A DNA stretch of 64,000 nucleotides from Acidimicrobiia bacterium (GTDB lineage: Bacteria; Actinomycetota; Acidimicrobiia; Spongiisociales; JAHEDJ01): assembly GCA_035471805.1 (NCBI GenBank), contig DATIPS010000010.1:1-64000 (forward strand), in the 5' to 3' direction. Both the position numbers and the translations under genes were made by a program. This document shows, piece after piece, positions 58,561 through 63,474 of this stretch (within the stretch, counting starts at the first letter, position 1; every line of letters starts with the position of its first letter). Below the pieces are notes generated by a model. The model saw only the letters and a program-made list of their open reading frames with translations. It did not search any database and was not told where the DNA came from.

Positions 58561-59304
58561 ATGGTCACCTTGTACTTGGAGTCATACGCGCCGTCGCTCG
58601 ACACTGCGGTCTCACACGCCTTGCTCAGGATGGCTTCCGAAGGCCGGCACGGTGAATCGTTGCGCTTGTATCGGCCGGCCGAAGTGGTCGCCTTCGGCAA
58701 GCGAGACGCGGTTGCAGACGGGTTCGCCAAGGCAGTTACCTCGGCCGGAGAGGCCGGGTACGAGTCTGTGATCAGGATGGCCGGGGGTCGGGCGGCGGTT
58801 TTCCACCGGGAGACGATCGCGTTCGCGTGGACGATCCCGACGCCGTCACCGCGTGATTCCATAACCGAACGATTCGAGAGGCTCTCAGGTCTGCTGGTCG
58901 ACGCCTTTCGCGATCTTGGGGCAGATGCCCGGATCGGCGAAGTCCCCGGCGAGTACTGCCCCGGTGAGTTCAGCGTCAACCTCGGAGGATCGACCAAGGT
59001 CATGGGTGTAGGTCAACGGCTGATCACCGGCGCCGCCCACGTGGGCGGGGTGATCGTCGTCGACAAAGGCACTGCGGTCGCAGACGTTCTCGTGCCCGTA
59101 TATCGCGACCTCGGGCTGGTATGGGATCCGGCCACATCGGGCGACCTCGCCTCCGCCATCCCCGGCCTCACCTGGGAGAACGTGAAGGACTCTGTGTTGA
59201 ACTCGTTCGGTCGGATGACCGAGTTCGATGAAGCACCCATACCGCGGGAAGCACTGCGCCGGGCGCGAGATCTGGAAATCCAGCACATGGCCAGCAAGAA
59301 GTGA
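58561..59304 (+). CDS. lipoate/biotin protein ligase A-like protein
   Basis: 247 residues. LplA/BirA-type catalytic fold: SLRLYRPAEVVAFGKRDAV, IRMAGGRAAVFHRET (a variant of the RRxTGGGxV lipoyl motif), and GEFSVNLGGSTKVMGVGQRLITGAAH with the Lys used for lipoyl-AMP. Missing the first Arg pair of the classical motif, so the exact substrate (lipoate, octanoate) is uncertain. It could lipoylate the E2 encoded at 17539; that is inference. Confidence 0.83.
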   Translation: MVTLYLESYAPSLDTAVSHALLRMASEGRHGESLRLYRPAEVVAFGKRDAVADGFAKAVTSAGEAGYESVIRMAGGRAAVFHRETIAFAWTIPTPSPRDSITERFERLSGLLVDAFRDLGADARIGEVPGEYCPGEFSVNLGGSTKVMGVGQRLITGAAHVGGVIVVDKGTAVADVLVPVYRDLGLVWDPATSGDLASAIPGLTWENVKDSVLNSFGRMTEFDEAPIPREALRRARDLEIQHMASKK

Positions 59305-59388: not shown

Positions 59389-60297
59389 TCACTGCACCAG
59401 ACTCACGAACTCGAATGCGACCTTCTCGAACGTCGACTCGTTCTTGGCTTTGACCACGAACACCTTGCCGTAGGGAGCCGTCGGGAACTCCACCCTGACC
59501 CACCACTCCCCCGCCGCATTGGCAACGGTCGATCCTGATCCGAAGTCGGAGATGATGAGGATCTTGGTACCCGGTGCGGCGGTGCCGTAGTACTCGTCGA
59601 AGGGCGGGTCCAGGGCACACTCGCCGTACTTCGCCTGCGCGGTGAATGCCCATTCGCCGGCGGGAGGTTTGGGCTTGACCTCGGGAGGGTCGTAGTAGAC
59701 GACGATCGAAGCCTCGGCAGTGTTCCCGGCCGCGTCGGTTGCCGTGAAGGAAGCCCTGTTGCCTCCTTCGCTCAGCATCAACACGATCGACCAAGATCCG
59801 TCATCCGCAACCGAAGCCTGATACGGCCCGGCGACCACGGTCGAGCCGGGTTCGGTCTTCCCCGCGAAGGTGACTGCTGTCTCCTTCAGACGATCACCAT
59901 CGAGCGGAGATGTGATGACGAGCTCCGGCGGATCTAGATCCACAGGTTCCGGGACCGGTCCCGGGCCGCCCGGCCGGGGAGAACCGCCCTCAGACGGGAC
60001 GGACGGAACTTCGCCGGCGATCGTTGTTGGAGTAGTGGCGGCGACCGTCGTGGTCGTGACCACGGTCGACGTAGTCGGAGTCGTCTCGGCGGTCTCATCA
60101 TCATCTGCGGCGAACATGCCGGCCTGGAGCGCCATGAAGCCGACGAAGATCACGACTGCGAACGCTCCCACGAAGGACAGCGTCCTGGCCAGGATCGGAG
60201 GCTTGGCCGGGCTGGGATTCATCAGCAGCAGCGGGTGGCCGGAGACCGTCGATTGCAGTCCCTCAGCAGCTTGTCTCGCCCGTTGATCGAGAGTCAT
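59389..60297 (-). CDS. membrane protein with Thr-rich linker and Ig-like domain; candidate anti-sigma partner
   Basis: 302 residues. A cytosolic head of about 35 residues (start MTLDQRARQAAEG), one TM helix (about 40-60), a Thr/Pro-rich linker (about 70-120) and a bacterial Ig-like domain (about 125-210: ITSPLDGDRLKETAVTFAGKTEPGSTV, DAAGNTAEASIVVYY), followed by a second beta-rich part. Start overlaps the sigma-factor stop by ATGA. Position and topology suggest control of that sigma factor, but the head lacks a recognisable zinc anti-sigma motif. Confidence 0.75.
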   Translation of the reverse strand: MTLDQRARQAAEGLQSTVSGHPLLLMNPSPAKPPILARTLSFVGAFAVVIFVGFMALQAGMFAADDDETAETTPTTSTVVTTTTVAATTPTTIAGEVPSVPSEGGSPRPGGPGPVPEPVDLDPPELVITSPLDGDRLKETAVTFAGKTEPGSTVVAGPYQASVADDGSWSIVLMLSEGGNRASFTATDAAGNTAEASIVVYYDPPEVKPKPPAGEWAFTAQAKYGECALDPPFDEYYGTAAPGTKILIISDFGSGSTVANAAGEWWVRVEFPTAPYGKVFVVKAKNESTFEKVAFEFVSLVQ

Positions 60298-60788
60298 TCC
60301 GACACCCCCAATCGGTCGGCGAGGTTCTTTCGTCCCTTGTGCAGGTGAACCTTTGCAGTGCTCTCAGTGCAACCGAGGATGGCCGCCACCTCAACCACGG
60401 GACGGTCCTCGAGATAGTGGAGAGCAATAGCTTGCGCCTGGCGCTTCGGGAGAGACCGGACGGCCTGCCAGAACTCGTCATCGCTCGACTCGAGTTCCGG
60501 GAGCGGTAGCTGACGGTCGAGGGCCACGCGGGCCAGGGCCCGGGTTTCCGCAGCCTTCCTCCGAAAGAGCGAAACGGACCGGTTGGAAACGACGCGCCGC
60601 ACCCAGGCGCCGGGTGATTCATACATCCCGACTCTCTCCCAGTGCTGGTGTGCCGTCATGAACGCCTCCTGGGCAAGATCTTCGGCAGCCAACCGGCTTC
60701 CGGACAGCGCGTAGGCCAGGCCGACGACTGCGCGATACTCACGCTGATAGAACACGTCGAACCGTTCCGGCCGCGCTATCACCTGCAT
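60294..60788 (-). CDS. ECF sigma factor (SigE-like small sigma-70)
   Basis: 164 residues from ATG 60788. Sigma region 2 (about 10-75: FDVFYQREYRAVVGLAYALSGS, AEDLAQEAFMTAHQHW) and region 4 (about 105-160: LPKRQAQAIALHYLEDRPVVEVAAILG, CTESTAKVHLHKGRKNLA). No C-terminal extension. The frame extends upstream, but that sequence is unrelated to the family. Co-transcribed with the Ig-domain membrane protein; diverges from aroQ. Its regulon is unknown. Confidence 0.92.
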   Translation of the reverse strand: MQVIARPERFDVFYQREYRAVVGLAYALSGSRLAAEDLAQEAFMTAHQHWERVGMYESPGAWVRRVVSNRSVSLFRRKAAETRALARVALDRQLPLPELESSDDEFWQAVRSLPKRQAQAIALHYLEDRPVVEVAAILGCTESTAKVHLHKGRKNLADRLGVSE

Positions 60789-60925
60789 CTCGTCCACGTG
60801 CCGCACCACGCGGTACGCCTCTCTCTCGTCGCATAGATCCCTGCGGGTTGTGATACCCGTTACTCGTATCGGCGCGAGGAAAGGTTTACCTGACCGAATT
60901 GGCCGCCCGTCCACCTACCGACCGG

Positions 60926-60939: not shown

Positions 60940-62127
60940 ATGCGTCGCATCCTGATCCTCAACGGACCCAACCTGAACCTGCTCGGCTCCCGGAAGCCGG
61001 ACCTGTACGGAACCACCAGCCTGGCCGATCTCGAGGGGCTGTGCGCGCAGTGGGGTTCCGACCGTGGCCTCGAAGTCGAAACGTTCCAGTCGAACCATGA
61101 GGGGGACCTCATCGACCGGTTGCACGCGGCGCGCCACATCGTTGACGGGGTGGTGATCAACCCGGGAGCGCTGACCCACTACTCGTACGCCCTGCACGAC
61201 GCGATCGACGCGATCGAGATCCCGGTAGTCGAGGTCCACATATCAAACGTCAAGGAACGGGAGAGCTGGCGCTCGCATTCCGTCGTCGGACCTGCGTGTG
61301 TCTACACGATCTACGGTCGCGGCATCGACGGCTACCGGTGGGCCGTCGACCATCTCGCCCATCGCGCCGCCTGGGCGACCACGACTCTGGCATATGCGGG
61401 GGGGTCGGACCATGTTGGGGATCTCCGCGTTCCGGACACGCACGGCCCTCATCCTGTGGCCGTTCTGATCCACGGTGGTTTCTGGCGCCATCATTGGACG
61501 CGCGACACCATGGAGGCAATAGCCATCGATCTGACCGGCCGGGGCTGGGCAACCTGGAATATCGAGTATCGCCGGGTCGGGATGGGCGGGGGGTTCCCGA
61601 CCACCCTCCAGGATGTGGGTGCCGCCGTGGACCATCTGGACGACATCGCCGCCGAGTTTCAGCTCGATCTGGAGCGGGTCGTGGTGCTCGGACACTCGGC
61701 GGGAGGTCAACTCGCCGTTTGGGCGGCGAACCGCCATCGTCTCGGCGAAGACGACCCCGGTGCGGCACCAAGGGTCGTACCGGCGGCCGTCGTATCACTT
61801 GCCGGGGTTCTGAACCTGGAAGTGGCGGAAAAGACAGGGCTGGGCGATGGAGCGGTGGCTGCGTTTCTCGGCAACGCGGCTCGCACCGCGGCTTACCGGG
61901 TCGCCTCTCCCCAACTTCTACTCCCGGCGGACCGGCCGCACATCGTCGTCCACGGGACCGGCGACGACCGCGTACCGGTCTCCTATGCACACGCGTACCT
62001 CGATGCCGCGAGACGTCCGGGAACTCCGGTTGAACTCCTCGAGATCGAAGGCGCCGATCATTTCGACCCCATAACTCCGTCGAGTTCTGCCTGGACGGCG
62101 GTTGTGACCAGACTCTCTACCGTTTGA
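60940..62127 (+). CDS. type II 3-dehydroquinate dehydratase fused to an alpha/beta hydrolase
   Basis: 395 residues from ATG 60940. Residues 1 to about 145 are AroQ: LILNGPNLNLLGSRKPDLYG with the lid Arg and Tyr, FQSNHEGDLID, VINPGALTHYSYALHDAI, PVVEVHISN with the catalytic His, and RSHSVV. They dehydrate 3-dehydroquinate in the shikimate pathway. From about 150 to the end is an alpha/beta hydrolase: oxyanion HGGFWRHHW, nucleophile GHSAGG, Asp in GTGDDRVPV and His in GADHFDP. HGGFW resembles kynurenine-formamidase-type hydrolases. Both catalytic sets look intact. A single gene carries both, without internal stop. Confidence 0.88.
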   Translation: MRRILILNGPNLNLLGSRKPDLYGTTSLADLEGLCAQWGSDRGLEVETFQSNHEGDLIDRLHAARHIVDGVVINPGALTHYSYALHDAIDAIEIPVVEVHISNVKERESWRSHSVVGPACVYTIYGRGIDGYRWAVDHLAHRAAWATTTLAYAGGSDHVGDLRVPDTHGPHPVAVLIHGGFWRHHWTRDTMEAIAIDLTGRGWATWNIEYRRVGMGGGFPTTLQDVGAAVDHLDDIAAEFQLDLERVVVLGHSAGGQLAVWAANRHRLGEDDPGAAPRVVPAAVVSLAGVLNLEVAEKTGLGDGAVAAFLGNAARTAAYRVASPQLLLPADRPHIVVHGTGDDRVPVSYAHAYLDAARRPGTPVELLEIEGADHFDPITPSSSAWTAVVTRLSTV

Positions 62128-62196: not shown

Positions 62197-62235
62197 CGCA
62201 GCCGAAACCGGTCCGACTATTGGCCTTCGGCTGCG
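62197..62235. terminator. inverted repeat between converging aroQ-fusion and ferritin genes
   Basis: CGCAGCCGAA (62197-62206) and TTCGGCTGCG (62226-62235) form a perfect 10-bp stem with a 19-nt loop, spanning the ferritin stop codon at 62217. No clear T-run, so a bidirectional terminator role is only likely. Confidence 0.4.
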
Positions 62236-62726
62236 GGCGGGCGAACGCCCAGCTCACGGTCCAGCATGAGAAGGGCGGTGCGATCCTCACCGATCATCTT
62301 GAGTTGCTCAACGATCAAACCAACGGTCGCCTCCTCCTCGATCTGCTCTTCGACAAACCAGTTCAGAAGCGGATAGCTGGCGAAGTCGCGCTCATCGGTA
62401 GCCAAGGCATAGAGATTGTTGATGGCCGCCGTCACTTTCCGTTCATGACCCAGCGAGGCCTCGAACGCCGACAATGCAGTGTCCAGCGACAAACCGGGGG
62501 CAGGAATCGAGTTCAGCTCTACATGACCCTCACGTTCCAATACGAAATCGAAGAACTTCATCGCGTGGAGGCGCTCTTCCTCTGCCTGCAATCTCATCCA
62601 TGCCGACATTCCGGGGAGGTTCTCCTCATCGAGGAACGCAGCCATCTGCAGGTAGGCGTACGACGAGGCAAGCTCGAGATTGATCTGTTCGTTGAAAGCT
62701 GTTTCGAGGTTCGTGCTGATCGGCAT
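62217..62726 (-). CDS. ferritin-like iron-storage protein
   Basis: 169 residues from ATG 62726 with AGGAG upstream. Ferritin family four-helix layout: LETAFNEQINLELASSYAYLQ (first Glu), MRLQAEEERLHAMKFFDFV (EExxH) and YPLLNWFVEEQIEEEATV. Ferroxidase-site residues Glu, Glu, His and the later Glu pair are present, so it should oxidise Fe(II) and store iron as a 24-mer. No heme-ligand Met specific for bacterioferritin is evident. Divergent from the kinase gene. Confidence 0.92.
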   Translation of the reverse strand: MPISTNLETAFNEQINLELASSYAYLQMAAFLDEENLPGMSAWMRLQAEEERLHAMKFFDFVLEREGHVELNSIPAPGLSLDTALSAFEASLGHERKVTAAINNLYALATDERDFASYPLLNWFVEEQIEEEATVGLIVEQLKMIGEDRTALLMLDRELGVRPPAAEGQ

Positions 62727-62832
62727 GTGAATCTCCTGACGAAAGACGATTTGGCAATGATATCGGCTGGTGCGCTGATGGAATCGCCGCCTCACGAGCC
62801 GGTTACCCTGAGGCTCGACGAAGGGAGCAGCC

Positions 62833-63474
62833 TTGCGCGGCGACATCATCATCGTTGAGGACCATCACCGGGCGGCGGCCTCTGCGATCGTGGAGAGGAT
62901 ATTGCCGTCGATCGTCTCAAAACCGGCCCGCTACACGCTCACCGTCGCCGGTGAGTCGGGAAGCGGGAAGTCGGAGACGGCCAAGGCAATCGCCGAGGCG
63001 CTCGGAAAGAGAGGGGTATCTTCCGAAGTGCTCCAACAGGACGACTACTTCGTTTATCCGCCCCGCACGAATCATCAAGCCAGAGTCGCCGACATCGACT
63101 GGGTCGGGACCAACGAGGTACTCATCGACCTCCTCGACGGCCATCTGGCCGCAGCCGTGGCGGGCGAGGATCACATCGAGAAACCCCTCGTGATCTACAA
63201 CGACGACACGATCACGACTGAAGTGATGTCGCTCGCCGGAATCGACGTCATCATCGCCGAGGGAACCTATACCAGCCTCCTGGACAACGTGGACACGAGG
63301 GTGTTCATTGCTCGCAACCGGCTCGAAACCCGAGCAGCTCGCCGGCAGCGGGGACGCGAGCCCATGGACCCATTCATCGAGCGCGTTCTCGAGATCGAGC
63401 ACGAGATAATCGCACCGCACAGAGCTCGTGCAGATATCGTCATAACCCGTGATTACGACGTCGAGTTCGTCTGA
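62833..63474 (+). CDS. uridine kinase-like P-loop protein
   Basis: 213 residues from TTG 62833 (AAGGGAG upstream). P-loop GESGSGKSE (about 37-45), Asp pair in LQQDDYFVYPPR (about 65), and IIAEGTYTSLL (Walker-B-like) with a C-terminal LETRAARRQRGREPMDP Arg-rich lid. Features match uridine/cytidine or related P-loop kinases, but the acceptor substrate cannot be read from sequence; a phosphoribulokinase-type role is also possible. Divergent from ferritin with 106 bp between. Confidence 0.82.
   Translation: MRGDIIIVEDHHRAAASAIVERILPSIVSKPARYTLTVAGESGSGKSETAKAIAEALGKRGVSSEVLQQDDYFVYPPRTNHQARVADIDWVGTNEVLIDLLDGHLAAAVAGEDHIEKPLVIYNDDTITTEVMSLAGIDVIIAEGTYTSLLDNVDTRVFIARNRLETRAARRQRGREPMDPFIERVLEIEHEIIAPHRARADIVITRDYDVEFV

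Follow-up and report, generated by a model that had tools for sequence, protein, structure and literature searches.

A type II dehydroquinase fused to a serine alpha/beta hydrolase in a large actinobacterial order

Why should an essential enzyme that usually stands alone be tied to a hydrolase of another pathway across most of a large, mostly uncultured actinobacterial order? The question is raised by one gene in the stretch of 64,000 nucleotides of an Acidimicrobiia bacterium (contig DATIPS010000010.1) that was analyzed here and is called the window. Relatives of this gene form a natural series from the intact pair to proteins with a dead hydrolase and others with a dead dehydroquinase (AroQ), and the series bears on why enzymes without a known common substrate stay fused. 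In the open-access literature searched (most subscription journals and domain-architecture databases were beyond reach), neither the fusion nor a pseudo-dehydroquinase was described. The component families are known; what appears to be new is their combination, together with the dehydroquinase remnant.

Two complete enzyme domains in one polypeptide

The gene is a single uninterrupted ORF of 395 amino acids plus stop, as seen in the ORF list and its translation, and encodes a complete type II 3-dehydroquinate dehydratase (DHQase) followed by a complete serine alpha/beta hydrolase (Table 1). An in-frame GTG is present upstream at position 60850, yet the homologues begin at 60940. These coordinates, the AroQ domain, the in-frame join, the HGGFW motif and the Ser-Asp-His residues had all been proposed in a first-pass annotation of the DNA and were borne out by the ORF, the Pfam and NCBIfam matches and the alignment. 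By homology, junction residues 145-165 represent the start of the hydrolase family, and they are kept in fused as well as AroQ-dead relatives. The AlphaFold2 model, which was built from 37 sequences and covers one chain, has a mean pLDDT of 93.7 and a pTM of 0.90, with a linker predicted to be free of disorder.

Table 1. Features of the fusion gene, its neighbors in the window and the AroQ remnants of relatives.
Feature	Position	Strand	Evidence or remark
Lipoate-protein ligase-like gene (context)	58561..59304	+	PF21948, E 1.6e-14; same-strand syntenic neighbor in 55 loci
Divergent ECF-type sigma factor (context)	60294..60914	-	Sigma70_r2, r4
Fusion gene, type II 3-dehydroquinate dehydratase (AroQ) + alpha/beta hydrolase	60940..62127	+	ORF, Pfam, NCBIfam; fusion in 99/138 genomes of the order
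AroQ domain, residues 1-144	60940..61371	+	PF01220, TIGR01088, fold match 8idr/8idu
AroQ catalytic Arg, residue 18 (M. tuberculosis Arg19)	60991..60993	+	97/101 aligned fusions, others gaps
AroQ catalytic Tyr, residue 23 (M. tuberculosis Tyr24)	61006..61008	+	97/101 aligned fusions, others gaps
AroQ catalytic His, residue 100 (M. tuberculosis His101)	61237..61239	+	99/101; exceptions AroQ-dead L214, L217
Short junction, residues 145-165	61372..61434	+	Predicted structure, pLDDT 88-96 over residues 141-170
Alpha/beta hydrolase domain, about residues 147-395, PF20434 / kynurenine-formamidase-like	61378..62124	+	PF20434, fold matches
Oxyanion-hole motif HGGFW, residues 178-182	61471..61485	+	HGGxW in 100/101 aligned fusions
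Nucleophile Ser253 in GHSAGG	61696..61698	+	93/101; lost in g35 (Gly, six genomes) and g34 (Glu)
Triad Asp342	61963..61965	+	99/101 aligned fusions, others gaps
Triad His374	62059..62061	+	99/101 aligned fusions, others gaps
Convergent ferritin (context)	62217..62852	-	PF00210, E 1.5e-38
AroQ-dead remnants, N-terminal 100-145 residues	L214, L217, L251, L254, L255, L269, L247, L281, L307, L303		Other actinobacterial lineages

The AroQ half matches PF01220 over residues 3-139 (E 2.6e-55; 186.4 bits against a cut-off of 23.3) and passes the curated cut-off of TIGR01088 (175.7 against 169.85 bits). Its predicted flavodoxin-like fold agrees with chains of the C. glutamicum structures 8idr and 8idu at TM 0.92-0.96 and an rmsd of about 1 A. 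The full set of type II catalytic residues (Asn12, Arg19, Tyr24, Glu99, His101, Arg108 and Arg112 in M. tuberculosis numbering) is in place, and these residues are kept in 95-99 of the 101 aligned fusions, two of which come from another order. Given that the window's own genome holds one AroQ and a chorismate synthase, the fusion, with its predicted DHQase activity, presumably serves the shikimate pathway there. The fusion is the sole DHQase of the organism and its order: the type I enzyme (PF01487) is absent from 137 genomes of the order, whereas control genomes matched as expected. A twelve-fold display of the hydrolase on a putative AroQ dodecamer, as put forward in the first-pass annotation, is a reasonable expectation by analogy.

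The hydrolase half matches PF20434 over residues 166-349 (E 7.2e-25; 88.2 bits against a gathering threshold of 26.8), and the score, the Ser-Asp-His triad and the oxyanion motif all place it in this family. It carries the motif set of the kynurenine-formamidase type (HGGxW plus Ser-Asp-His), and it gives no match to the KynB-type metal-dependent arylformamidases (TIGR03035, PF04199). The closest solved sequence is the carboxylesterase 9x6a (E 2.5e-30), in a search in which the fly and yeast kynurenine formamidases were not among the matches. The predicted fold matches 6mly, 6xyc, 6tkx and 5ao9 and resembles carbohydrate and other esterases.

Distribution, selection and loss of either half

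An uninterrupted fusion was found in 99 of the 138 genomes of the window's order, representing 42 genera and six families, although a few of these 99 are broken by a contig end or by a stop or frameshift of the assembly (G087, G105, G117, G121). The remaining genomes contained AroQ alone (25), an eroded hydrolase (2), only the hydrolase at a contig end (1) or no match (11). In the window's genus, four other genomes carry the fusion at 74-80% identity, and both halves are under purifying selection, with dN/dS of 0.05-0.13 for AroQ and 0.07-0.15 for the hydrolase, synonymous sites being near saturation in distant pairs. The hydrolase half is under weaker constraint than the AroQ half in genera g11 and g45. 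A frameshift or missing stop codon at the join, one way in which the first-pass annotation might have been wrong, is contradicted by the 99 genomes and the purifying selection in both halves, and the other, homologues that are always separate genes, does not agree with the 25 genomes with AroQ alone set against 99 with the fusion. That an assembly artefact or a lost stop codon produced the join has a vanishingly small probability and was rejected: independent assemblies share an identical join with a conserved linker throughout the 42 genera, and purifying selection acts at the codon level on either side of it.

Whether or not the hydrolase is present, the gene lies in a conserved neighborhood of an ABC transporter, a lipoate ligase and then aminotransferase genes. 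No shikimate-operon context was found around the fusion; its neighbors are the ABC transporter, the lipoate ligase, aminotransferases, and a DNA polymerase III alpha-like gene or ferritin. In the window, the genes for an ECF sigma factor and, behind it, an Ig-like-domain protein (59389-60914, minus strand) diverge from the fusion gene. A search of plasmids yielded no intact fusion.

A tree of the hydrolase domain was calculated from 98 sequences, including 41 free relatives. One branch parts the fused and AroQ-remnant proteins from the free ones (ultrafast bootstrap 89, SH-aLRT 84, 93% of bootstrap trees), which fits a single origin of the fusion. On the strength of this tree, L239, L283, L266 and L277, the four proteins with the heaviest erosion, fall into the remnant group. 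Intact fusions also occur in G620 and G630, two genomes of a different actinobacterial class; both cluster with members of the window's order in the hydrolase tree, and G630 does so in the AroQ tree as well, as horizontal transfer would predict. Genus g42 comprises two genomes with the fusion and two with AroQ alone (G099, G100); the latter are nested among the fused AroQs, and the hydrolase can therefore be lost. For families f3 and f5, the AroQ tree, which has few columns, leaves either a lost hydrolase or one that was never there.

Hydrolase decay takes several forms. The catalytic Ser is replaced by Gly in g35, where GHSAGG has become GHGSGG (L140, L149, L153, L154, L157, L158), and by Glu in g34 (L146); the g35 hydrolase half has a dN/dS of 0.09-0.27 despite its replaced nucleophile. 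In g58, the fusion is eroded to about 290-330 amino acids, with a truncated hydrolase that has no Pfam match. For L202 (G121) and L237, an in-frame TAA lies in the AroQ half of the fusion, in a genome with a second, stand-alone AroQ elsewhere; the stop may reflect true decay or an error in base calling.

In other lineages, the AroQ half has died beside an intact hydrolase, namely in G285 and G301 of another order, in four genomes of family f91 and in several of f69. These proteins lack Arg19, Tyr24 or His101; their lid loop is deleted or unrecognizable, as is the greater part of the active loop. Preservation is best in strands b3-b5, the GRG turn and the last helix. No Pfam dehydroquinase match was obtained in any remnant scanned. 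A profile built from intact AroQ only recovered the remnants at E-values of 4.5e-29 to 3e-4, compared with a best value of 3.8 among the 41 free hydrolases, and in leave-one-group-out tests remnants scored about 1e-12 or better. Profile support is weaker for L277 and L266, marginal for L239 of Rhodococcus (E 0.004-0.02) and, from sequence alone, absent for L283. The Rhodococcus plasmid protein WP_125053605.1, annotated as alpha/beta hydrolase, has a marginal remnant of the AroQ C-terminus, IRGRGIDGIHFAVESVYHHK, ahead of the hydrolase. A pseudo-dehydroquinase domain is revealed in actinobacterial proteins annotated just as alpha/beta hydrolase. G285 holds a separate intact AroQ, which would explain why its fused copy was free to decay.

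As judged from these protein sequences, either half has decayed independently after the fusion, which argues against an obligatory shared pathway. One explanation is that the fusion arose by a single stop-codon loss and was retained by drift, with the hydrolase as a dispensable passenger. The single origin, the repeated hydrolase loss (g35, g34, g58, G099/G100) and the occurrence of the same locus with and without hydrolase would be in line with it, but the triad is intact in about 90 genomes of six families, and a pure passenger would decay faster than the hydrolase of the window's genus does at its dN/dS of 0.07-0.15. We consider this explanation unlikely.

Genomic context and the function of the hydrolase

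Kynurenine-type gene context was found for the free hydrolase relatives L285, L090, L252 and L056 and for the AroQ-dead L281 and the Rhodococcus L294, whereas most free relatives examined have none. In L285 (G619), tryptophan 2,3-dioxygenase (TDO), kynureninase and the free hydrolase relative stand in a row on one strand; in L090 of Stagnimonas, the hydrolase gene directly follows kynureninase; and in L281 (G730), the AroQ-dead hydrolase adjoins TDO. The Rhodococcus plasmid locus (L294, 7295-18819) combines a probable remnant hydrolase with TDO, a kynureninase-like enzyme, an aryl-CoA ligase and an oxygenase of the salicylyl-CoA-hydroxylase type, and a remnant hydrolase of G474 lies in a similar aryl-CoA cluster (L286, 9179-16800). 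Both clusters probably encode aryl-CoA degradation of the salicylyl- or 2-aminobenzoyl-CoA type. Since its relatives lie beside TDO, kynureninase or aryl-CoA genes, we infer that the hydrolase is best read as an arylformamidase or aromatic esterase of the HGGxW (kynurenine-formamidase) type.

Two genomes of the window's order with an intact fusion also have kynurenine operons. G075 has an operon (L314, 3320-7281) of 3-hydroxyanthranilate dioxygenase (HAO), kynureninase, monooxygenase (KMO) and TDO, and G104 has one with kynureninase and TDO; operon genes other than TDO and kynureninase were identified by eye from sequence. No formamidase gene is present within either operon, and the fusion is a candidate for this step, which is absent from some bacterial kynurenine operons. 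The G075 operon is a compact kynurenine-to-quinolinate set in Acidimicrobiia. As for KynB in TDO-positive genomes, none of the 10 PF04199 proteins tested reaches the TIGR03035 cut-off, PF04199 being too broad a family. G131, with TDO and a dead or eroded hydrolase, has several PF04199 proteins, and the single one tested has no TIGR03035 match. In G077, which has no PF04199 protein, kynureninase and a short TDO-like protein occur together with a dead hydrolase, so other formamidases must exist or its pathway is broken. TDO-positive genomes may also use other, unrecognized hydrolases, which would weaken the formamidase reading.

TDO (PF03301) is absent from the window's genome (G000) and genus; it was found in 29 of the 99 fused genomes and is missing in 70, some of which are incomplete MAGs. 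The search with the PF01231 (IDO) profile had no match in any control and says nothing on this enzyme. The own genome also lacks a PF04199 protein, and it encodes a kynureninase-like class V aminotransferase with Aminotran_5 and KYNU_C domains (L331, 1043-2170, on G000:C28) that reaches 127 bits against the kynureninase cut-off of 246. It has been considered that the hydrolase is a kynurenine formamidase throughout the order, oxidative damage, import or an unrecognized dioxygenase then being the source of N-formylkynurenine. We regard this as a rather poor prospect, for although relatives have kynurenine context, formamidase is missing from the kynurenine operons and KYNU_C is present in a kynureninase-family protein of the own genome, that protein scores far below its cut-off and TDO is missing as stated. 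Because neither the own genus nor 70 of the 99 fused genomes has TDO, a dedicated role as kynurenine formamidase cannot be general, a universal role of this kind was rejected, and the substrate in the window's genus can be predicted as a class only.

The first-pass annotation had suggested that the hydrolase cleaves a shikimate-derived or tryptophan-pathway ester or amide. Nothing in our analysis supports a shikimate-derived ester. The tryptophan-pathway amide is supported indirectly: relatives beside TDO and kynureninase and the formamidase-free operons of G075 and G104 speak for it, but not for the TDO-free genus of the window or the 70 fused genomes. A direct link between the two substrates would exist if the hydrolase freed quinate or another shikimate-pathway acid from a chlorogenate-like ester, feeding 3-dehydroquinate to AroQ. 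PF20434 (BD-FAE) is by name of the feruloyl-esterase type, the nearest folds include carbohydrate esterases and GH43-CE, and 3-dehydroquinate is the substrate of AroQ; nevertheless, this is quite improbable, given that an AroQ half which is the only DHQase is biosynthetic, that the halves are lost independently, and that relatives lie in kynurenine or aryl-CoA rather than quinate clusters, no quinate-utilization gene being noted near the fusion.

Proposed role and comparison with known systems

We posit, with about even confidence, that the fusion is a bifunctional housekeeping protein, sole DHQase and aromatic formamidase or esterase in one, whose sites work separately without a channel. Ser253, Asp342 and His374 would attack a small aromatic substrate at its N-formyl or O-acyl group, the HGGFW loop forming the oxyanion hole. 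Where a lineage has TDO, the fusion plausibly provides the formamidase that the kynurenine operons lack, while in the window's genus it would act on an aromatic ester or formamide of another kind. Each active site would work independently of the other, with no substrate channel between them, and the AroQ half would give constitutive expression and probably a multimeric scaffold. Tethering with shared expression and assembly is favored over substrate channeling, and kynurenine formamidase serves as the closest analogy for the mechanism of the hydrolase rather than as a proven role in the window's organism.

More tentatively, AroQ may have become an assembly scaffold: an arylformamidase would have been tethered first, and the AroQ chemistry would have been lost later, with the domain core and final helix retained as a partner without catalytic activity. 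The tether to an essential dehydroquinase multimer would have provided constitutive expression and multimeric display for the arylformamidase, and catalysis would have been lost where a second AroQ was present or following transfer, leaving a domain missed by family databases. We see this as possible, and as clearly less probable than the bifunctional housekeeping protein.

With the type II DHQases (AroQ, PF01220, TIGR01088; C. glutamicum 8idr/8idu), the fusion shares the full-length domain, the catalytic residues and the fold. It differs from the stand-alone enzymes, of which those chosen for a kinetic survey (PMC4314829) were proteins of 15-18 kDa, by an additional C-terminal enzyme of 250 residues. 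With the animal kynurenine formamidases, which resemble esterases (PMC5171882), and the bacterial EstDZ2-type esterases of the PF20434 group, it shares HGGxW, the GxSxG nucleophile, Asp and His, and relatives of its hydrolase occur beside TDO and kynureninase, in the place where one would look for a kynurenine formamidase. Unlike these HGGxW hydrolases, the window protein is fused to AroQ, its own genome lacks TDO, and the nearest sequence with a solved structure is the carboxylesterase 9x6a. WP_125053605.1 belongs to the same hydrolase clade, but its AroQ part is catalytically absent and unseen by Pfam, and it lies in a TDO/kynureninase/aryl-CoA cluster.

AROM and the plant type I DHQase-shikimate dehydrogenase are fusions that join steps of the shikimate pathway. 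In these proteins, of which the DHQase-shikimate dehydrogenase fusion is cited in PMC4314829, a DHQase is likewise joined to another enzyme, whereas the partner in the fusion of the window lies outside the shikimate pathway.
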